This document shows positions 1,753 to 21,378 of a stretch of 39,284 nucleotides of DNA, piece by piece (within the stretch, counting starts at the first letter, position 1; each line of letters starts with the position of its first letter). A model generated the notes under the pieces. That model ran no database searches, was not told where the DNA came from, and saw only the letters and a list, made by a program, of their open reading frames with translations. A program made the position numbers and the translations under genes. Source of the stretch: a virus; the IMG/VR virus record IMGVR_UViG_3300046512_000366, positions 1 through 39,284 of that record; one strand, 5' to 3'.

Positions 1753-1949
1753 CGAATAATAATGACCTGTTAGCCCATTTAAAAGAGACCGAAGCTGTTA
1801 TCAAAGACTGGCCAGCATGGAAAAAAAATATCTGGCCTGAATCACATGTGGTGCCGAATTCTGTCAGCGTCGTTACAACGGTCCCTGCGACCCAAGGAAA
1901 TTTTTTCGCTGAGCTGGCGTCCTTGCAGCGACACAGAGCAACTATTTAG
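1749..1949 (+). CDS. Small protein coupled to the deaminase gene
   Basis: The start codon overlaps the deaminase stop in an ATGA, so the two are probably translationally coupled. The 66-residue product begins with an acidic, tryptophan-containing stretch (EAVIKDWPAWKKN, residues 15-27). I recall this type of motif from many short prophage-encoded proteins of unknown function. The last residues run into the palindrome at 1936-1955 at the integrase end, so the C terminus may have been altered by recombination there. It has no signal peptide or membrane segment. It could be an accessory or antidote to the deaminase, but nothing in the sequence proves this. Confidence 0.55.
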   Translation: MTNNNDLLAHLKETEAVIKDWPAWKKNIWPESHVVPNSVSVVTTVPATQGNFFAELASLQRHRATI

Positions 1950-1955
1950 TTGCTC
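1936..1955. terminator. Palindrome between converging genes, possible terminator or att-proximal site
   Basis: A perfect 8-bp inverted repeat (GAGCAACT, loop ATTT, AGTTGCTC) sits where the rightward 66-codon gene and the leftward integrase gene meet. Both stop codons lie inside it. On the plus strand it is followed by CGACAATTTT, a weak U-rich tail. It may terminate transcription in one or both directions. The end of an outward-facing integrase gene is also a common place for attP, but no matching copy was found at the right end of the window. Confidence 0.45.
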
Positions 1956-2973
1956 CGACAATTTTGCCCCTGCGTAGATAGTGACGTTGCGTCGTCTTGA
2001 CGCTGTCGTGGCCAAGTAAGTCGCTCGCGGCCTGATCACCGCGCAGGTCGCTAGTGTCGTCTGCAGCCTTCGCGCGCAGGTCATAGAAATGGAACCCCTC
2101 GATCGCACTCTTTAAGGCCGGCGCTGACTCCGCGGCCGCCTTACGCGCTGCATCGAAGTGGTTGCGCAATACTGGAGCCGTGAGCCGCTTCCCGTTTGTA
2201 TTCGTTAACAGCGCACCGGTAACAATCTTGTGTGTCGCCTTCCTCGCGCGGATGCGCACGACTAGCTCGGCCAGCTTGCCAGCGATGATGATCCGCAGCG
2301 GTTGCTGCGTTTTCGCCTGGGTCACGATGAGGTGCCCGTCGATGATGTCGTGCTCGGTCATGCGCAGCGCATCGGCGGGCCGCTGTCCGGTGAGGTAGGC
2401 AAGATCCATTGCGTCGCGCAGCGGCTCGCTGCCTTGCTCGTACACCGCCGCGTACATCGCATCGGTTATATAGACCGTGCGCTTGGCCAGCGAATGCCCT
2501 TTGATTCCCTCGCAGGGATTTGGGAGGTCGGTATACCCCCAGCCGCGCGCCTGATTCCACATCGTCGAGAAAAGGCGCTTGCATCTGTTGGCTGTTGTCG
2601 GCTTGTCGGCGTGGTCGTCGAGGAACATTTTAATGTTCATCGGCTTTATCTGGTCCAGCGGCGCGTCCTGGAACGAAGCCATCAGGTGCTTTATGTCCGA
2701 GGCGTACATGCGAGCCGTGCTGGCGGCCAGCTTCGGAACCGCTGTGGTCATATATTTTTTCTGGACGTCGGAGAAGGTGGCGCCACGATGGGGCGCTTCA
2801 ATCACATTGAGGTCGGCATACTTGCGGAGCGCAAGGATGAAGTCTTGACCCAGCGGGATCTCCTTCCGCTTGCCATCGACGTTGCTGCGGAGGTAGTAGT
2901 ACGTCTTCCCGCCGAACACACGTTTGCGCATGTGCGGTGGGAGATTCAAATTAACGGTTGGCTTTCGACCCAT
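1942..2973 (-). CDS. int: Tyrosine-family phage integrase
   Basis: The 343-residue protein is a site-specific recombinase for integration and excision. The N-terminal arm-binding part (about 1-60) is followed by a SAM-like core-binding domain (about 65-160) and the catalytic domain. Catalytic residues visible are Arg198 in TGQRPADAL, Arg300 in box II, His322 in LLGH and the nucleophile Tyr332 in TQRHYLRR. The first box II position, usually His, is Tyr297 (FYDLRAKAA), which also occurs in some phage integrases. The gene is last in the early-left operon and its start overlaps the excisionase-like gene by 23 bp. This arrangement suits coordinated control of integration and excision. Confidence 0.95.
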   Translation of the reverse strand: MGRKPTVNLNLPPHMRKRVFGGKTYYYLRSNVDGKRKEIPLGQDFILALRKYADLNVIEAPHRGATFSDVQKKYMTTAVPKLAASTARMYASDIKHLMASFQDAPLDQIKPMNIKMFLDDHADKPTTANRCKRLFSTMWNQARGWGYTDLPNPCEGIKGHSLAKRTVYITDAMYAAVYEQGSEPLRDAMDLAYLTGQRPADALRMTEHDIIDGHLIVTQAKTQQPLRIIIAGKLAELVVRIRARKATHKIVTGALLTNTNGKRLTAPVLRNHFDAARKAAAESAPALKSAIEGFHFYDLRAKAADDTSDLRGDQAASDLLGHDSVKTTQRHYLRRGKIVGATK

Positions 2974-7294: not shown

Positions 7295-7512
7295 GGCGCG
7301 GTCTCCATGGCACCGGCCGGCACGTAGTCTGCGTTGGTCAGCGGGCAGGGAAGGGCGCGCAGCAGTGGCGCCAGCGGTTCCTCAACCAGGTCGAACTCGT
7401 TGGCCAGCGCCTGCAGGAAGTAGCCACTCCGGCCGGCCGCACTATTCGGGAAGCACGCGCGCGCATCGGCGGCGCATTTCTCCAGCACCTTCAACATGTT
7501 CTTCGCGTTCAT
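7291..7512 (-). CDS. Small helical early-left protein
   Basis: A 73-residue protein starting MNAKNMLKVLEKC, with two helices and a proline-rich C terminus (EEPLAPLLRALPCP). Overlaps both neighbours by ATGA. No function recognised. Confidence 0.6.
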   Translation of the reverse strand: MNAKNMLKVLEKCAADARACFPNSAAGRSGYFLQALANEFDLVEEPLAPLLRALPCPLTNADYVPAGAMETAP

Positions 7513-7961
7513 GCGGCACCAATGACAGAGAGGAGTTCACGAATCGCGGTGACGGTAGCCGAAGAGACCGTCCCCGTCCGCTCGAAGTCGAGGTCGGCCT
7601 GGCGGCAAACGACGACGAGTTCTTCGGCATGAGCCATGCGCGCGGCTACGGTCTTCAGGCGAGACACAGGAACACCGCTCCACGTGTCGGGCGCGGTGGT
7701 GCGGCCGATGAAATGACCGCCAGCGTCGTAAATTGAATAGCAGCCAGTCGAGCACAACCGAATACGCATACCGCTTTCGCGTTGGCGCGTGGTGAGAAAA
7801 TCGTAATGGGCTTGCAGCTGGTCGACGTGCTGCTGCGCGGTTTGCACTTTCAGCGGATCGACTACCAAGGACCTGCGCCCTGACGCAAAGACAGGCGGCA
7901 GGTCTGCAGCGTTGGGGCAGACGATGTTCCGTTCGGGAGCTGCTGCTGCAAATTTGGACAT
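7509..7961 (-). CDS. First gene of the early-left operon, unknown
   Basis: The 150-residue protein (start MSKFAAAAPERN) has a central helical segment (VQTAQQHVDQLQAHYDFL) followed by a strand-rich part with two cysteines (RIRLCSTGCYSIYDAGG). I chose the ATG at 7961 because GGAG lies 7 nt upstream; another ATG 12 bp earlier lacks this. It is the first gene after the early-left promoter, with a leader of roughly 30 nt. Function unknown. Promoter-proximal genes of early-left operons often encode anti-defence or host-takeover proteins. Confidence 0.65.
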   Translation of the reverse strand: MSKFAAAAPERNIVCPNAADLPPVFASGRRSLVVDPLKVQTAQQHVDQLQAHYDFLTTRQRESGMRIRLCSTGCYSIYDAGGHFIGRTTAPDTWSGVPVSRLKTVAARMAHAEELVVVCRQADLDFERTGTVSSATVTAIRELLSVIGAA

Positions 7962-7999: not shown

Positions 8000-8028
8000 A
8001 TTATTACATACGTATTTAGATAAGACAA
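8000..8028 (-). promoter_or_regulatory. Early-left promoter (PL-like)
   Basis: On the minus strand the -35 TTGTCT (8028-8023) is followed after 17 bp by the -10 AATAAT (8005-8000), which is preceded by TG, so it is an extended -10. The predicted start is about 7993. The design matches the cro promoter at 9507-9535, and two operators overlap it in the same relative positions. Confidence 0.7.
8003..8016. promoter_or_regulatory. Repressor operator, left 1
   Basis: ATTACATACGTATT: 5-bp arms around a 4-bp centre with one arm mismatch. It covers the -10 of the early-left promoter. Its centre (8009.5) is exactly 24 bp from the second left operator. Confidence 0.7.
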
Positions 8029-8040
8029 TACAAATGTAAT
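8027..8040. promoter_or_regulatory. Repressor operator, left 2
   Basis: AATACAAATGTAAT: the same consensus as the other four operators (AWTAC, 4 bp, GTAWT). It overlaps the upstream edge of the -35 of the early-left promoter. Centre at 8033.5. Confidence 0.7.
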
Positions 8041-8067
8041 TAAAAATTTGTGTTTTAGTAGTTTTGG

Positions 8068-8352
8068 CTAAAAGGGTAGGGCGTACGCTGTATCGCAGGA
8101 TCGTACAGACGTACGCCAATCTATCGTCCGCGAGTCAATGTGTCTCAGCAGGCTCGTCAGGTCGAAGGTAGCATATGATCTTGAAAACCCGCCTACCCTG
8201 GGTGAGAGGAGAAGTATGGGTAAAGTGGGATATATCAATTCGGCTTGCCGAAGCACATGATCTCCGGCAGTCCCGTAGGTATACTCCGGGCTGACCAAGA
8301 CTGCTGCGAGCCTCAGTCGACCGACCACGATAACGGCGTGGGGGAAATTCAC
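8068..8352 (-). CDS. Conserved unknown protein in the lysogeny block
   Basis: The 94-residue protein starts at GTG, 4 bp after the zinc-ribbon gene stop. It contains an ordered pattern, VSPEYTYGTAGDHVLRQAE, then YPTLPILLLSPRVGGFSRSY and FDLTSLLRHID. I recall similar short proteins in prophages and genomic islands of Burkholderiales, without a known function. It looks like a small alpha/beta fold. It lies in the cI direction, between the repressor and the early-left operators, so it is probably expressed in lysogens and is a candidate lysogenic-conversion gene. Confidence 0.6.
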   Translation of the reverse strand: MNFPHAVIVVGRLRLAAVLVSPEYTYGTAGDHVLRQAELIYPTLPILLLSPRVGGFSRSYATFDLTSLLRHIDSRTIDWRTSVRSCDTAYALPF

Positions 8353-8355
8353 AGC

Positions 8356-8676
8356 CTATGGCTTGTGCCCGTATTTCTCGACAAAATTTCGCTTCATCAG
8401 CTCGCATGCACCTGCGATGAATTGAGCCCCACCTGCGCTGTTGGATTTCTTGGCCTGTTCATCCCAGCAAAGTGAAATTGCATCCCTATCCGTTGATTTT
8501 GCTTTTGCTTCCGGCGTGTTGGCGACGGTCGCCCCGAACGCCAGGAATGCTACAGGTATTGCCAGGACCACCCAGAGCCACACGTAGGATCTAGGTCGTT
8601 TGGCGCCACAGTTGGGACAGGCTGCAGCCTTGGTGCTCATCTCTTTGCTGCATTCGGAACATTTGATCATCGCCAT
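8356..8676 (-). CDS. Zinc-ribbon membrane protein
   Basis: The protein (about 106 residues) starts with a zinc ribbon, KCSECSKEMSTKAAACPNCG, with two CxxC knuckles. This is followed by a basic linker and one membrane helix (YVWLWVVLAIPVAFLAFGATV). The C-terminal domain of about 60 residues is probably periplasmic and contains two cysteines (SLCWDEQAKK and GACELMKRNF). The start is uncertain: ATG at 8676 or 8670, neither with a clear ribosome-binding site. It lies downstream of cI in the same direction and has its own promoter-like sequence. Membrane proteins in this position often exclude superinfecting phages, which is inference here. Confidence 0.75.
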   Translation of the reverse strand: MAMIKCSECSKEMSTKAAACPNCGAKRPRSYVWLWVVLAIPVAFLAFGATVANTPEAKAKSTDRDAISLCWDEQAKKSNSAGGAQFIAGACELMKRNFVEKYGHKP

Positions 8677-8705
8677 GAGAGTGTCAACTAATATTGAGAG
8701 CACTC

Positions 8706-8711
8706 ATTATA
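8706..8711 (-). promoter_or_regulatory. Candidate -10 box for the zinc-ribbon gene
   Basis: A perfect TATAAT on the minus strand (8711-8706) in the 77-bp gap between cI and the zinc-ribbon gene. The best -35 at 16-17 bp is poor (TTCTAA-like). It would start transcription near 8699, giving a leader of about 23 nt. It may let the conversion genes be expressed independently of cI. Confidence 0.35.
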
Positions 8712-8753
8712 GGCAAACATTGCAATTTAGAATCTATCGAAAGGTCACTTGTC

Positions 8754-9470
8754 TCAAATTACATCGGACTCTTTTTTCACTACTCTTCCGATGACCAAGC
8801 ATTCCCCGCTCCGGCAACTTTTCCGGTGATACTTGCGCTGATCCGGGTTGTCGGAGCATAGCCACCATTGCCCCATGTCCCTCGTTAGCCTCTTAACGAC
8901 AGCTTCGCCCTCATAGTTCACGGCGAACACCCCGCCATCGGCCATGCTCGTGTCGGCGATGTTAATAATGACTAAGTCACCGTGGTATAAGCTAGGTTCC
9001 ATACTCTCGCCTTTGATAGTCAGCGCAATCAAATTTACCGGCGAGTAGCCATTTCTATCAACCCAGTTTTTTTGGACGGACAGTCTACTTCCATCATAAA
9101 TATCGGGAACGGTCTGAAAGCCAGTGAGGCCCGCTGAAAGACGCAGCTGGACCTTTGGTATTTGATAAAAATCTGGATCGCCATCTTCTACTATCGTTAC
9201 CCGCATTGCGTCTGCGAGAACAGGAGTCGCTCCCCAGGTCGTTGGAAATGGATCGCCTTTTCCCTCAGCCAGCCAAACAGGGTCCACCTCTACGGCCTTT
9301 GCGATGCTCGTTATGCTCCTTGACGTGCTTGTTCGCCCAGTTTCAAGATGCCCAATCGCACCCTGGGACACGCCAGCCTTAGCTGCTAGGTCTGCTTGGG
9401 TGAATTCATGGCCGTCCCGTATGGATTTTTGAGCGCGCGCCCAGATTAGCCGGTCTGCAAGTGTCTTCAT
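8754..9470 (-). CDS. cI: CI-like S24 phage repressor
   Basis: The 238-residue protein is the lysogeny repressor. Residues about 22-66 form an XRE-type helix-turn-helix (TQADLAAKAGVSQGAIGHLE). The C-terminal half is a LexA/S24 autopeptidase with a likely self-cleavage bond Ala113-Gly114 in RLSAGLTG, the nucleophile Ser156 in KGESMEP and the general base Lys193 in VVKRL. All are intact, so RecA-stimulated self-cleavage and SOS induction are expected. The start codon directly abuts operator O1, leaving no room for a ribosome-binding site, so the message is probably leaderless as for lambda cI. Transcribed divergently from the Cro-like gene. Confidence 0.95.
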   Translation of the reverse strand: MKTLADRLIWARAQKSIRDGHEFTQADLAAKAGVSQGAIGHLETGRTSTSRSITSIAKAVEVDPVWLAEGKGDPFPTTWGATPVLADAMRVTIVEDGDPDFYQIPKVQLRLSAGLTGFQTVPDIYDGSRLSVQKNWVDRNGYSPVNLIALTIKGESMEPSLYHGDLVIINIADTSMADGGVFAVNYEGEAVVKRLTRDMGQWWLCSDNPDQRKYHRKSCRSGECLVIGRVVKKESDVI

Positions 9471-9484
9471 ATTACGATTGTAAT
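9471..9484. promoter_or_regulatory. Repressor operator, right 1 (next to cI) and cI -10
   Basis: ATTACGATTGTAAT has perfect 5-bp arms. It overlaps the presumed cI -10 on the minus strand, TACAAT (9482-9477), whose predicted start site is the A of the cI ATG (9470). No good -35 is visible at 16-18 bp, so the promoter may need activation, as lambda PRM does. Confidence 0.7.
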
Positions 9485-9494
9485 AAAAATGTTA

Positions 9495-9508
9495 AATACA
9501 AAGGTATT
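9495..9508. promoter_or_regulatory. Repressor operator, right 2 (central)
   Basis: AATACAAAGGTATT has perfect 5-bp arms (AATAC/GTATT). It is centred 24 bp from each flanking operator. It overlaps the first two bases of the cro -35 on one side and the -35 region of cI on the other, so it is placed to repress cro and possibly contact polymerase at cI. Confidence 0.7.
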
Positions 9509-9535
9509 GTGTAAGCAAAATACATATGTAATAAT
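9507..9535 (+). promoter_or_regulatory. Early-right (cro) promoter
   Basis: TTGTGT (9507-9512), a 17-bp spacer, and AATAAT (9530-9535) preceded by TG form an extended -10 promoter. With six bases of discriminator, the start would be the A of the cro ATG at 9542. The same layout recurs at the early-left promoter. Confidence 0.7.
9519..9532. promoter_or_regulatory. Repressor operator, right 3 (next to cro)
   Basis: AATACATATGTAAT, one arm mismatch. It covers the spacer and part of the -10 of the cro promoter. Its centre (9525.5) is exactly 24 bp from the central operator. Confidence 0.7.
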
Positions 9536-9541
9536 CGGCTT

Positions 9542-9754
9542 ATGGACACTCAAAAAATCACCAACGAGTTGCTGGCAACTGGGATAACGCAGCAGCAGCT
9601 CGCTGACCGAATTCCCTGTAGCCAATCGACGATAAATGCCTTCGCAAAAGGCAATCGTGGCAGTCGTCCTACTTTCTCCATAGGGCTGCGGCTGCTTAAG
9701 CTGCATGAAGAATTATGCGTTGCACCCGTATCTGACTCGACACGCAGCGGATAG
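9542..9754 (+). CDS. Cro-like helix-turn-helix regulator
   Basis: The 70-residue protein is a single XRE-type DNA-binding domain: TNELLATGITQQQLAD, then a recognition-helix region CSQSTINAFAKGN (about 26-38). Position and divergent orientation opposite cI make it the Cro equivalent, expected to bind the three shared operators and favour lytic growth. No ribosome-binding site precedes the ATG and the predicted transcript starts at it, so it is probably leaderless. It is followed by a strong intrinsic terminator. Confidence 0.8.
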   Translation: MDTQKITNELLATGITQQQLADRIPCSQSTINAFAKGNRGSRPTFSIGLRLLKLHEELCVAPVSDSTRSG

Positions 9755-9915: not shown

Positions 9916-10359
9916 ATGAACACACATGACGCATTTCACGACACCGTACACGGATCGCCAGGCGGCTGCGAGGCCCTTGCAGTTCGCCTCGGTATGTCGG
10001 CGGCTGTCCTGCGGAACAAGGCGAATCCGAACGCGGTTGCGAACATCGTCGGCCTGCGCGACGTCGAGCGCGTCATGGCGCTGACCGGGAACTTCGGCGT
10101 TCTGCACGCGCTGGCCAGCAACCACGGTCACGTCGCGATCAAGGTCGAGAATGACGCCGAGCCGTCCGATTTGGCTGTGCTGGAAATGGCGGCGAAGGCG
10201 TGGGCCGCCAGCGGCGACGTTGGCCGCGAGGTCTATGCCGCGCTGGCCGACGGTGTGATCGAGTCGCACGAAGTGGAGAAGGTCAGGGCGGCGGCTTACC
10301 GCGTCACCCAGACGATGAGCGCGCTGGTGTCGCGCCTTGATGGCATGGCGCAGAAGTGA
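9916..10359 (+). CDS. Phage CII-family regulator
   Basis: The 147-residue protein starts MNTHDAFHDTVHG and follows the phage regulatory CII family pattern: GGCEALAVRLGMSAAVLRNKANP (helix-turn-helix, about 17-39), then VERVMALTGNFGVLHALA and a C-terminal helical domain (EMAAKAWAASGD). In such phages it is a transcription activator for lysogeny or delayed-early genes. I used the ATG at 9916, which has AGGG about 9 nt upstream. The frame remains open 48 bp further upstream, but that start is in the leader region. Confidence 0.8.
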   Translation: MNTHDAFHDTVHGSPGGCEALAVRLGMSAAVLRNKANPNAVANIVGLRDVERVMALTGNFGVLHALASNHGHVAIKVENDAEPSDLAVLEMAAKAWAASGDVGREVYAALADGVIESHEVEKVRAAAYRVTQTMSALVSRLDGMAQK

Positions 10360-10766: not shown

Positions 10767-10813
10767 TTGCATTTTCCAATAATTGAAAACTAGATAATAA
10801 CCTAGGAGCAATG

Positions 10814-11068
10814 ATGTCTTCCCAAATCCCCCAGACCCCTGCCGGCGTGAACGCGCTGCTCGACATTCTGATCGCGCGCGGCCAGCTGAAGAATGATGCG
10901 GCGCTGTCGCGTCTGCTGGAGGTGGCTCCGCCAGTCATCAGTAAGATGCGTCACGGCCGCCTGCCGCTGGGCGCTTTGCTGCTGCTGAAGATCCATGAGC
11001 TGCTCGACATGCCGATCCGTGACATCAAGGCGCTGCTGGTGCCGGCACAGGACGCTGCAGCAGCATGA
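10814..11068 (+). CDS. Small HTH protein before the primase-helicase
   Basis: The 84-residue protein contains a helix-turn-helix (NDAALSRLLEVAPPVISKMRHG, shown here without claiming exact borders; about residues 26-47) and a C-terminal helix pair (LLLKIHELLDMPIRDI). The ATG at 10814 has AGGAG 5 nt upstream; the preceding ATG is only 2 nt from it. It overlaps the primase start by ATGA, so it may regulate replication genes. Confidence 0.7.
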   Translation: MSSQIPQTPAGVNALLDILIARGQLKNDAALSRLLEVAPPVISKMRHGRLPLGALLLLKIHELLDMPIRDIKALLVPAQDAAAA

Positions 11069-13818
11069 CGCTCGACGATGTAGTCAGGGAGATGCTGGGA
11101 TGGGGCCTTCCTTCGCTTCCCAACGGCGTGCCGATCCTGAACGGCAAGATACATCGCTTTGGCAAGGGCAAGAAGGCCTGGTACCGCCTGCGCGAGGTTC
11201 TGCTGGATTCCGGCAAGACCGTTATCACTGGCTCCTTTGGTCAGTGGCAAGGGCGTGATCCCGGTACCGTGCCGGTCACCGTCGACTGGAGCGGGGTGAC
11301 CGATGCCGAGCGCGCCGACTTGGAGCGCCGCCAGGCTGAGGCTGAAAGGCAGGAAGTGGAACGGCGCCAGCGCGCTGCCGAGCTTGCTGCCGGGCGCGCG
11401 CGCCAGCAGTGGGGTTCAGCCACCGGCATCGACCAGGCGCTGGACGTGCCGTACCTCAAGCGGAAACGCATTGGTGGTGAGCACGCACGCGTGACTGGCG
11501 CCGGCGTGCTGTTGGTGCCGGCGCGGAAGTACCGCGCTGGCCAGCGGCCGGAATTGGTCAGCGTGCAGAAGATCGAACCCGATGGTGAGAAGCGCTTCAA
11601 CCTCGGCGCCGATATGATCGGGGCGGCCTGCCTGCTGGGCGCCATCGATGCCCAGACGCGAGTGATCGGCATAGCCGAGGGCTATGCTACCGGCCAGTCG
11701 GCACGCATGGCCACTGGCGATGCTCTGCCTGTCATGGTCGGCTTCAATGCCGGAAACCTGGTTGCTGTGGCGCGTCAGCTGCGTGCGGACTTCCCTGAAG
11801 CAATTCTTCTTTTTCTTGCTGACGACGACTGGCAGACTGAGCAGCGCTTCGCCCGTGATCTGCTGGACCAGTTTGAGGTGGATGGACTGCCGCCCATCAA
11901 TGGCGCTGACCACGTTGTGCTGAGCAAGGGAGACGACCGCGTCACCATTCGCGCCTGGCACCGTACTGACCCGACTGGCACGCCGTACATTGAGGCGGAC
12001 GTACGTGCAGGCCGGCGCGTGCGTCTGTGGAAGTTCGAGAACGCCGGCATCGCCTCGGCCCGCGCTGCGGCGCGCGAGGTAGGTAACGCCGAGGTGGTGT
12101 ATCCGGTATTCGCCCATCGTGGACAGAACAAGTGGACCGATTTTAACGACTTGCACGTCGAGCAGTCGCTGGACGACGTCAGTGCGCAGCTGGGCGGCGT
12201 GCTGGAGCGGCTGCTGGCCGGCGAGGTGCTGCCATTTGTGGCCGCCGACCCTTCGCCCGCGCCCTCATCGGAAGCGGCGCCGGCAGCGGCGGAATCAATC
12301 TCCCCGGCCCCCTCTGGTTTGACTGCGCCGGCAGTGATGAGCGGTGTGTTCTCGCTGGCGTGGGCGTTGTCGCATTGCGCCTTGGTGCAGGGTTCGACCG
12401 ACGTGTGGGACTCACTGAACAAGCTGCGCATGAAGCGCGCCGCATTCGTCGACATGGTCGGCAAGGAAGCGGCCAAGGCGTGGTCCGGCCACGGCGAGCG
12501 ACGCTCGATCAGCCCGCGCAATTTGCCGCGTACGATCCGTGGCGTCGCAGTTGAGGACGGGGGGGCGGGGGAAGACCAGATCGTCATGATGTTGGACCGG
12601 TACACGCTGCTGTACGGGACCAAGACGGTTTGGGATAGCTACAACCGCTCGATCCTCGGCTACGACGCCATGACGTTGGCGCGCGGCGTCGACTTGGCGT
12701 CGCGCTGGTTGAGTCATGGCCTGCGCCGTGAGGTCGATCTGGACAAGCTGGTGTTCGATCCTACCCAGCGGGTGGATCTTAATACGCACATCAACATGTT
12801 CCAGGGCTTCCCGCTGACGCCGAAGAAAAATGACGCTTACGTGGAACTGGTGCTGAGCCTGCTCTACAACTTGTGCGCGCACGAGACGAACGCCGACGAC
12901 GTCTTCAAGTGGGTGCTCAGCTGGCTCGCGTACCCGCTGCAGCACCCGGGCGCCAAGATGCAAACTGCACTGCTTTTCTTCGGCGAGAAACAGGGTACTG
13001 GCAAGTCCCTGTTCTTCGAGGGGATTATGAAGCCCATCTACGGCTCAGCCGGCGCCACCGGCGGGCAGCACCAGCTGGAAGCGACGTACACGATGTGGCG
13101 TTCGCAAAAGCTGTACGTGGTGTTTGAGGAAATCCTCTCGCGCCAGGACAAGTACAGCCACTTTGGCGTCATCAAGCACATGATCACCGGCCGCGATTCG
13201 TCGATCTCGCAGAAGTTCAAGGATGACCGGACCGAGGCCAACCACTTGAACTGCGTGATGCTGTCGAACGAGTTCCAGGCGGTGCCAATCGAGCCGGAGG
13301 ACCGCCGATTCCTCGTGGCCGAGGCGCGTGTGCACCCGGGCGACGAGTTGCTGGAGAAGATCAAGGCGCTGCTCGACAACGGGCTGATCGAGGCCTTCTA
13401 TGCATTCCTGCTGGAGTACGACGTCGGCGATTTCAACCCGCACACCAAGCCGCTGATGACGCCGTCGAAAGAGCGCGTGATCAACTTTGGCCGGCCCGAC
13501 TGGGAGGCATTCTACTTGTCCTGGGCTGCGGGCGACTTGGCGGTGCCGTACTGTTGCTGCCTGTCCGAAGACCTGTACGTCGTCTACACGCGCTACTGCA
13601 ATCGTTTTGGATTCCGGTCCATATCGCTGACCAAGTTCGCGGAGCTGATCGCGCAGCGCATACCCAAGAGCCGCCAATGGGTGCAGCTGGGAACACGGAA
13701 GAAACAATTGCTGACCGTATTCCACGTCGACAGTGATAGCACAGACACATTGCAAAAGCAGGTGGAGACTTTCCGCAACCTCGCAGATATCCGGGAGGCG
13801 AACCGTGATCGCGCCTAA
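11065..13818 (+). CDS. Primase-helicase (Toprim plus DUF5906 SF3-type helicase)
   Basis: The 917-residue replication protein has an N-terminal segment with an alanine/arginine-rich coiled helix (about 80-115). A Toprim domain follows, with the catalytic glutamate in IAEGYATGQS (Glu205) and the acidic cluster LADDD (253-255), then an Ala/Pro linker (about 390-420). The C-terminal superfamily-3-like helicase of the DUF5906 type has Walker A GEKQGTGKS (640-648), Walker B-like YVVFEEI and sensor LSNEFQAVPIEPEDRRF. Such fused proteins prime and unwind at the phage origin, as P4 alpha does. The direct-repeat cluster immediately downstream is a candidate origin. Its start overlaps the HTH gene by ATGA. 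Confidence 0.9.
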   Translation: MTLDDVVREMLGWGLPSLPNGVPILNGKIHRFGKGKKAWYRLREVLLDSGKTVITGSFGQWQGRDPGTVPVTVDWSGVTDAERADLERRQAEAERQEVERRQRAAELAAGRARQQWGSATGIDQALDVPYLKRKRIGGEHARVTGAGVLLVPARKYRAGQRPELVSVQKIEPDGEKRFNLGADMIGAACLLGAIDAQTRVIGIAEGYATGQSARMATGDALPVMVGFNAGNLVAVARQLRADFPEAILLFLADDDWQTEQRFARDLLDQFEVDGLPPINGADHVVLSKGDDRVTIRAWHRTDPTGTPYIEADVRAGRRVRLWKFENAGIASARAAAREVGNAEVVYPVFAHRGQNKWTDFNDLHVEQSLDDVSAQLGGVLERLLAGEVLPFVAADPSPAPSSEAAPAAAESISPAPSGLTAPAVMSGVFSLAWALSHCALVQGSTDVWDSLNKLRMKRAAFVDMVGKEAAKAWSGHGERRSISPRNLPRTIRGVAVEDGGAGEDQIVMMLDRYTLLYGTKTVWDSYNRSILGYDAMTLARGVDLASRWLSHGLRREVDLDKLVFDPTQRVDLNTHINMFQGFPLTPKKNDAYVELVLSLLYNLCAHETNADDVFKWVLSWLAYPLQHPGAKMQTALLFFGEKQGTGKSLFFEGIMKPIYGSAGATGGQHQLEATYTMWRSQKLYVVFEEILSRQDKYSHFGVIKHMITGRDSSISQKFKDDRTEANHLNCVMLSNEFQAVPIEPEDRRFLVAEARVHPGDELLEKIKALLDNGLIEAFYAFLLEYDVGDFNPHTKPLMTPSKERVINFGRPDWEAFYLSWAAGDLAVPYCCCLSEDLYVVYTRYCNRFGFRSISLTKFAELIAQRIPKSRQWVQLGTRKKQLLTVFHVDSDSTDTLQKQVETFRNLADIREANRDRA

Positions 13819-19789: not shown

Positions 19790-20044
19790 ATGATGATTAA
19801 GTCGATGGTTGCAAACTCGGCAGCGAGCAGCCCGCACCCGGATGATCCGAGCCTGCGCATTCAACACGTCACCCCAGTGGATGGTAACGGACTTCCTGCG
19901 ACTGGCGGGACACATGCCTATGGTTACGATGGTAACGGCAATCTGACGACAGACACTTGGACTGTCGGCGGTAACGTGTACCAAAAAATCTACGGCTACA
20001 CCGGCAATGGCTTGGCCGGGGAATCGGATTGGGTGAAACAATGA
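19790..20044 (+). CDS. Small YD-repeat-like protein
   Basis: The 84-residue protein carries two short aromatic-glycine repeats of the YD/RHS type: HAYGYDGNGNLTTDTWTVGG (residues 42-61) and KIYGYTGNGLAGE. Similar single-repeat proteins accompany phage tail and decoration genes. An AAGGA motif lies just upstream of two tandem ATGs (19790, 19793). Its stop overlaps the hydrolase start in an ATGA, so the two genes form a pair. Confidence 0.65.
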   Translation: MMIKSMVANSAASSPHPDDPSLRIQHVTPVDGNGLPATGGTHAYGYDGNGNLTTDTWTVGGNVYQKIYGYTGNGLAGESDWVKQ

Positions 20045-21378
20045 GTTTCGGCGAGTTCATGAAGAATGCGGCGCTGGCGCGCCTGCCACGCTGGAGCGCC
20101 GATGCTGGGTCTTTGATCGGCAAATCCGGCGCGCCTTTTCGCATCGGCCGCAAAGAGTACTTGGTCGCGTTGCTAGGCAACAGCCTATCGCGCGAGTGCG
20201 GACCAAACCAGAACGGCAACACGCTCAACTGCCCGAATGTCGGTTGGTTCAACTGGCTCAATCCGATGCTGGACAACGCGCTTACGCTGGTGCTGAACGC
20301 CGGCGTAGCGGGTGATACAGCGGAGATGATCTGGAACCGCGTTGACACGGTGATCGCGTCGCCTGCGCAGTATGTCTTTTGCGAAGAGGGGACCAATGAC
20401 GCCATTGCGTTGATCCCTCTCGCCACTACAACAGGATTCATGAAGCTGACGTGGGACAAGCTGCGTGCAAATGGCAAGACGCTTATTTTGCAAACGACAT
20501 TCCCGCTCGCAAAGCTGACCCTTGCTACATCATCCCTGATTCTGCAGTACGGTGATTTCATGCGAGAATATGCGCGTCTCAATCCGGACGTGATCCTTCT
20601 CGACGGTTACTCGGATGGAGTCGATCCTTTGTCAACCTTGGGTTACGCCAAGGCGAATTACATTCGCTCGGACCTCACACACCTGACGCCGCTGTACGGT
20701 CGTGTCAAGGCGAAGAACTATGCGGCCGTCCTGAAGCCGATTTTCCCGTCGTATGCCTATCACGTCTCATCGGTAATCGATACTCGCAGCATCAGCCCCA
20801 ACAGTCGAAACATTGCACCCTATTCGCTGATGACGGGCGCTAGAGATGGCGTCAAGGGCGCCGGCGTGACCAACGATCCTGGTGCAAACGGTGGTTTGGC
20901 CCACGCCTATCAGGCCAGCTGCACAGGTACGGCGACTGCTGTTGTGTCAGTGGTTCCCCGCGCCGACGGCTTCGGCAACGACCAGGTCCTGGTGATGACG
21001 TCGGCCACGAACTTCGACACCGTGCAGTTCGCTAGCAATGACTCGATGTATCTGAACATCGCGAACCTGGACCAGCTGCAGAGTGAGCTTTTCGTGGAGA
21101 TCACGGGTGCGAGCAACATCTACCGCTGGCATATCCGGTTGGCCTTTACCTGTGGTGGTGTCTCTTATGACACGGTGCTGATGGCTAGTTCCACGGAGAC
21201 CGTCGCCCAGTTCGATCAGTCCGATATGCCGAGCATGCCCTTTCGTACACCAATCCTGACCGTTCCAGCTGCTGGCGCGATCACCGGCGCGACGATGACG
21301 CTGGTAGTCACTTTTGGCCCAGGTTTAGGCGGTGCCACCTTTAAGGTCGGCCGTCACTACACCCGAAAGGTAAATTGA
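20041..21378 (+). CDS. SGNH/GDSL hydrolase with C-terminal beta domain
   Basis: The 445-residue protein has all four SGNH blocks in order: the nucleophile Ser in LLGNSLSREC (GNS replaces GDS), Gly in LNAGVAGDT, Asn in EEGTNDA, and the Asp-x-x-His pair in DLTHLT. The first 250 residues should be an esterase or deacetylase. Residues about 270-445 are strand-rich, glycine/threonine-rich and resemble virion-surface beta domains. Possible substrates are acetylated capsule, LPS or peptidoglycan sugars. It sits between portal and capsid genes rather than with tail fibres. A TTG 12 bp upstream is open, but the ATG in the ATGA overlap is preferred. Confidence 0.8.
   Translation: MSFGEFMKNAALARLPRWSADAGSLIGKSGAPFRIGRKEYLVALLGNSLSRECGPNQNGNTLNCPNVGWFNWLNPMLDNALTLVLNAGVAGDTAEMIWNRVDTVIASPAQYVFCEEGTNDAIALIPLATTTGFMKLTWDKLRANGKTLILQTTFPLAKLTLATSSLILQYGDFMREYARLNPDVILLDGYSDGVDPLSTLGYAKANYIRSDLTHLTPLYGRVKAKNYAAVLKPIFPSYAYHVSSVIDTRSISPNSRNIAPYSLMTGARDGVKGAGVTNDPGANGGLAHAYQASCTGTATAVVSVVPRADGFGNDQVLVMTSATNFDTVQFASNDSMYLNIANLDQLQSELFVEITGASNIYRWHIRLAFTCGGVSYDTVLMASSTETVAQFDQSDMPSMPFRTPILTVPAAGAITGATMTLVVTFGPGLGGATFKVGRHYTRKVN

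Follow-up and report, generated by a model that had tools for sequence, protein, structure and literature searches.

The window analysed here is the whole of an IMG/VR record, 39,284 bases long, and by gene content it represents a temperate tailed phage, encoding terminase, portal, head protease and tape measure proteins in addition to the genes in Table 1. Its regulatory region is organized around a leftward repressor gene and a divergent, rightward cro-like gene. The CI protein finds its best Protein Data Bank matches for the helix-turn-helix (HTH) domain in 434 Cro and 434 repressor; its cleavage site (A113-G114) and residues S156 and K193, all unchanged in a comparison of nine sequences, form on sequence grounds the pattern of RecA-assisted self-cleavage. 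Downstream of cro lies a cII-type activator, but of a family other than that of lambda CII. We place the start of this gene at its first internal ATG, since the listed open reading frame, which runs from 9868, opens with TTG.

Table 1. Features of the switch region and flanking genes, in order of position
Feature	Coordinates	Strand	Remarks
Integrase	1942-2973	-	
First PL-operon gene	7509-7961	-	no family match; ATG at 7961 after GGAG
Predicted PL	8000-8028	-	TTGTCT (8028-8023)-17-AATAAT (8005-8000)
OL1 AATACGTATGTAAT	8003-8016	-	minus-strand sequence; overlaps PL -10
OL2 ATTACATTTGTATT	8027-8040	-	minus-strand sequence; overlaps first two bases of PL -35
Strong imperfect hairpin	8080-8117	-	fold z = -4.0; followed by CCCTTTT; ~50 bp ahead of PL
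Cargo gene between cI and OL (rex position)	8356-8703	-	zinc ribbon and hydrophobic segment
cI, 238-aa repressor	8754-9470	-	Pfam HTH_3 and Peptidase_S24
OR3 ATTACGATTGTAAT	9471-9484	+	holds PRM -10 (TACAAT, minus strand); abuts cI ATG
Predicted PRM	9477-9505	-	-10 TACAAT (9482-9477); weak -35 inside OR2; inferred
OR2 AATACAAAGGTATT	9495-9508	+	final two bases are the first two of PR -35; covers weak PRM -35 region
Predicted PR	9507-9535	+	TTGTGT (9507-9512)-17-AATAAT (9530-9535); TGT before -10; read from sequence
OR1 AATACATATGTAAT	9519-9532	+	between PR hexamers, overlaps PR -10; exact motif; conserved in relatives
cro-like HTH protein, 70 aa	9542-9754	+	phrog_6831
CII-like activator	9917-10359	+	Phage_CP76 / phrog_101; E 1.8e-35 (Phage_CP76)
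HTH protein	10811-11068		
Primase	11065-13818		

On the left, scanning of the genes returned no match to an N-like antiterminator, and an Rfam search found no RNA family. The hairpin between the cargo gene and PL is likely to be a terminator for the cI-cargo transcript, judging from its fold and the T-rich tract behind it. Among relatives the interval separating cI from OL varies between about 85 bp and 4.7 kb, and this variability suggests that it serves as a slot for cargo expressed in lysogeny, for example superinfection exclusion functions. Elsewhere in the record, a 449-aa open reading frame (20029-21378, plus strand) that falls between the portal and head-protease genes matches a moron lipase family (phrog_6102, E 2e-33), an unusual position for cargo. 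A blastn search with 4 kb around the switch region against the phage collection returned no match, and the closest named relative of CI with the same operator class, from Massilia agrisoli (L105), is 57% identical.

The initial annotation had reported five palindromes in two clusters and had named many equal matches elsewhere in the genome as an observation that would count against them. An exact search for AWTACNNNNGTAWT (AWTAC-N4-GTAWT) recovers precisely these five, three between cI and cro and two ahead of the leftward operon, and none elsewhere in the record. The reversed pattern has no match, and the only two sites in the record with one mismatch (473 and 3446) are both isolated; the record-wide scan likewise found no third OL site. 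Within each cluster the start-to-start distance is exactly 24 bp. In 300 simulated windows matched for dinucleotide content, the motif occurred on average 0.04 times and at most twice, and a pair spaced by 24 bp appeared in none of the 300.

The sites are embedded in predicted promoter elements. Consensus readings of PR and PL give a look-alike design, TTGTnT-17-AATAAT, and the placement of the operators on the two promoters is the same, as had been claimed at the outset: the last three bases of the proximal operator (OR1 or OL1) also belong to the -10 hexamer, and the operator beyond it (OR2 or OL2) has two bases in common with the -35. Transcription from PR would be expected to begin at about 9541-9543, at the cro ATG, and that from PRM at the cI ATG, yielding a leaderless message as lambda PRM does. 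The poor -35 element of PRM, lying within OR2, is what one expects of a promoter helped by CI bound to that site. The start codons of cro and cI follow the -10 hexamers of PR and PRM at a distance of 6 nt, with no evident Shine-Dalgarno sequence ahead of either ATG in the record, from which we predict that each mRNA begins at its AUG and is thus leaderless. The GGAG preceding the first left gene indicates, for its part, a leader of about 30 nt on the PL-operon mRNA. Across most of the family, too, cI and cro seem to have no ribosome-binding site (9471-9541 in the window, with counterparts in L005, L087, L090, L093, L097, L100 and L105); four cro genes in the family carry a 5-nt Shine-Dalgarno match.

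Taken together, the locus displays the hallmarks of a lambdoid switch, namely divergent cI and cro genes around operators, a three-plus-two arrangement of sites lying on predicted PR, PRM and PL elements, an HTH-S24 repressor and a CII protein. We consider that the five palindromes are most probably 14-bp CI/Cro operators of a lambda-type lysis/lysogeny switch, with a probability of about 0.93. In such a switch, CI dimers on OR1 and OR2, and on OL1 and OL2, would shut PR and PL, the two early promoters, and from OR2 CI would probably also activate PRM, as we assume; Cro, or CI at high concentration, would shut PRM from OR3. DNA damage would release the switch through RecA-stimulated self-cleavage of CI. 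A spacing of 24 bp, or about 2.3 helical turns, would allow neighboring dimers to touch via their C-terminal domains while placing each site on a promoter element. Binding itself and the order of affinities we infer, as we do activation of PRM, cooperativity between dimers, looping between OL and OR, release in the SOS response and the lack of leaders on the cI and cro mRNAs.

If the palindromes are operators, their layout should be shared by related phages, and the initial annotation had suggested a scan of related prophages. We collected CI relatives from viral contigs and bacterial genomes, mostly of Oxalobacteraceae (Massilia, Janthinobacterium and Duganella), and in a separate, direct search looked for motif pairs at 24-bp spacing. 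The DNA upstream of each CI gene was then scanned de novo, blind to the motif, for three mutually similar palindromes spaced by 23-25 bp with a score of at least 25/30. Such a triple was present in 33 of 169 CI loci, as compared with 0 of 3,380 shuffled sequences (maximum shuffle score 24); 23 of the 33 loci, the window included, had been fetched by the CI protein alone, and the 10 that came via the motif search are biased. The other 136 relatives have no triple at that score; in some the predicted start is off, which would account for the missing triple, or the sites may be more diverged, and others may lack the layout. Motif pairs at 24 bp were also found at several loci where the search brought up no CI relative (L088, L089, L091, L092, L094, L098 and L102-L104). 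Of these, L089 shares a contig with L101, and L094 and L104 come from contigs that also yielded L086 and L096; in the viral contigs L088, L091, L098 and L103 the pairs may belong to another repressor whose specificity is similar, or may have arisen by chance.

The geometry of these loci is held within narrow limits. OR3 directly abuts the cI start in the window (distance 0) and lies at -1 to +2 from it in 28 of the 33 loci; the cro ATG stands 7-12 nt from OR1 in 26 loci, and exactly two matching left-hand sites accompany 16 of the 23 loci examined on that side, counting the window. The three-plus-two layout thus recurs in independent related phages. What varies on this common geometry is the half-site, which reads ATTAC/AATAC, ATCAC, TTAGG, TTTAG, ATAGG or TCAAC. 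The strict 24-bp spacing that had been claimed stands for this phage and for the ATTAC/AATAC class, in which all 13 right-hand clusters are spaced 24,24, but it does not extend to the wider family. In relatives whose operators belong to other classes the spacing is 23-25 bp, so we reject 24 bp as a general law for the family and regard the spacing as constrained rather than invariant.

Variation in the half-site raises the question of whether the DNA-binding proteins vary with it. The 434 operator is likewise 14 bp long, and the A at its position 1 is contacted by Gln28 of the repressor (structure 2OR1). We used the 434 repressor as an alignment guide, with its register confirmed against PDB sequences and its row kept outside all statistics. 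At the position of Gln28, the first of the recognition helix, glutamine is found in 11 of 11 distinct CI helices whose operators have A at position 1, whereas all 11 distinct helices paired with T at that position carry Lys, Glu, Pro, Ala or Val (Fisher p = 2.8e-6 over 22 distinct helices, a value inflated by the shared ancestry of the CI relatives). On a tree of CI C-domains, three supported independent switches of this residue and base are concordant in all three cases (sign test p = 0.25). The recognition helix of Cro follows the same trend, with glutamine in 12 of 12 helices of the A class versus two of nine others (p = 0.0003). Within a single phage, the helices of CI and Cro also resemble each other more than expected (3.5 of 8 matching versus 2.1 when permuted, p = 0.0002), a likeness that holds within an operator class (p = 0.004).

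The behavior of Cro bears on the most serious alternative, in which the sites are bound mainly by CI and Cro uses only OR3, or another sequence altogether. There are precedents for such a division of labor: the Cro protein of the telomere phage PY54 binds OR3 alone (PMC4488713), and that of phiKO2 does not bind OL (PMC4997575). In several relatives, moreover, OR3 differs slightly from the other sites (ATTACAATCGTGAT). Against this stands the covariation of the Cro helix with both the CI helix of its own phage and operator position 1, and we consider the alternative unlikely, if still worth weighing.

The operators also track the N-terminal, DNA-binding half of CI. Operator distance correlates with N-domain distance when C-domain distance is controlled (partial Mantel r = 0.35, p = 0.001); for C-domain distance the correlation is weaker (0.23, p = 0.0025), and the operator classes are intermixed on the C-domain tree. 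This dependence on CI, together with the constant position of the sites relative to cI and cro among phages whose half-sites are unrelated, makes it very improbable that the palindromes serve another regulator of phage or host, such as a CII-like or host HTH protein acting at these promoters, even though the window does encode further HTH proteins (the CII-like activator and the product of 10811-11068). An origin of the palindromes by chance in AT-rich intergenic DNA, prompted by the AT-rich composition of both operator regions, is refuted by the occurrence of two or more sites in 0 of 20,000 simulations of the local composition and by recurrence of the motif in unrelated contigs, and we give it next to no weight. 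The gene context, the overlap with promoters, the recurrence of the layout and the covariation of operators with CI and Cro helices all support the proposal of the initial annotation that the sites are CI/Cro operators setting immunity specificity.

Two relatives suggest how specificity may change under this reading of the sites as CI/Cro operators. The L097 repressor is 81% identical to the window CI in its N-domain and 46% in its C-domain, and its operators are the same; the L006 repressor is 23% identical in the N-domain and 66% in the C-domain, and its operators are of the TTTAG type. Both look like mosaics of N- and C-domains. These mosaics, the N-domain correlation and the covariation of the helices indicate a correspondence between the operators and the DNA-binding domains of CI and Cro. 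One proposition, on which we find the balance to be even, is that phages of Oxalobacteraceae and neighboring Burkholderiales exchange an immunity cassette made up of the CI DNA-binding domain, the operators and Cro. The scaffold would stay the same: three sites on the right and two on the left, spaced by 23-25 bp, with OR3 adjoining the cI AUG, the cro AUG about 9 nt beyond OR1, and leaderless mRNAs for both genes. A swap would involve recombination in the CI linker together with coordinated change of ten half-sites and two recognition helices.

For a phage that has not been studied, the operators provide a testable immunity specificity. The added value of the comparison lies in about six naturally occurring operator classes that share a scaffold, each with matching CI and Cro helices; the series constitutes a data set on how a repressor can change its specificity while the switch keeps working, points to the swapping of immunity cassettes on a fixed scaffold, and can be used to predict mutual exclusion among prophages of Massilia, Janthinobacterium and their relatives.

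Individual elements of the design are familiar from other phages. A literature search on operators of Massilia and Janthinobacterium phages and on those of D3 returned nothing usable, and the VarioGold paper names CI, Cro and CII but not operators. The Pseudomonas phage D3 (AF165214) has an S24 CI that is 29% identical to the window CI in a match covering 91% of its length, and its cI-cro interval, like that of the window, contains three annotated 14-bp operators with a spacing of exactly 24 bp; OL is not annotated in the stretch compared. It differs in operator sequence and in its cro gene, which has a clear Shine-Dalgarno sequence (AAGGAGGG), and the gaps of 12-13 nt to both genes mean that D3 is not leaderless by layout. 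The 434 repressor and Cro, the best solved relatives of the window CI HTH, recognize a different half-site, and Gln29 and Gln33 of 434 correspond to Gly37 and His41 in the window CI.

In the immB region of the telomere phages N15 and phiKO2, five operators (three OR and two OL) have been shown experimentally to bind the CB repressor (PMC4997575), and the cro ATG of N15 directly follows OR1, a placement resembling that in the window. Those sites, in contrast, are 16-bp T-A-(N)10-T-A sequences, and their OL governs repA of a linear plasmid prophage, where the window has a leftward operon with an integrase; with AWTAC-N4-GTAWT operators and an integrase gene, the window departs from an N15-type switch. 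The cI and cro mRNAs of PY54 both begin at the AUG, as mapped by RACE (PMC4488713), an arrangement like that predicted here and, within the literature compared, established by experiment for PY54 only; unlike the window, PY54 has a single recognizable operator (OR3), the one to which its Cro is confined. Lambda shares with the window the divergent cI and cro genes, OR1-OR3 at spacings of 23 and 24 bp, an OL upstream of the left operon and, with our prediction, a leaderless cI message from PRM, but it has six 17-bp operators, three of them in OL (24 and 20 bp apart), and a cro gene with a leader and a Shine-Dalgarno sequence. The design is thus known piecewise from D3, N15/phiKO2, PY54 and lambda, and the window is best described as a lambda-type switch with an operator sequence of its own.
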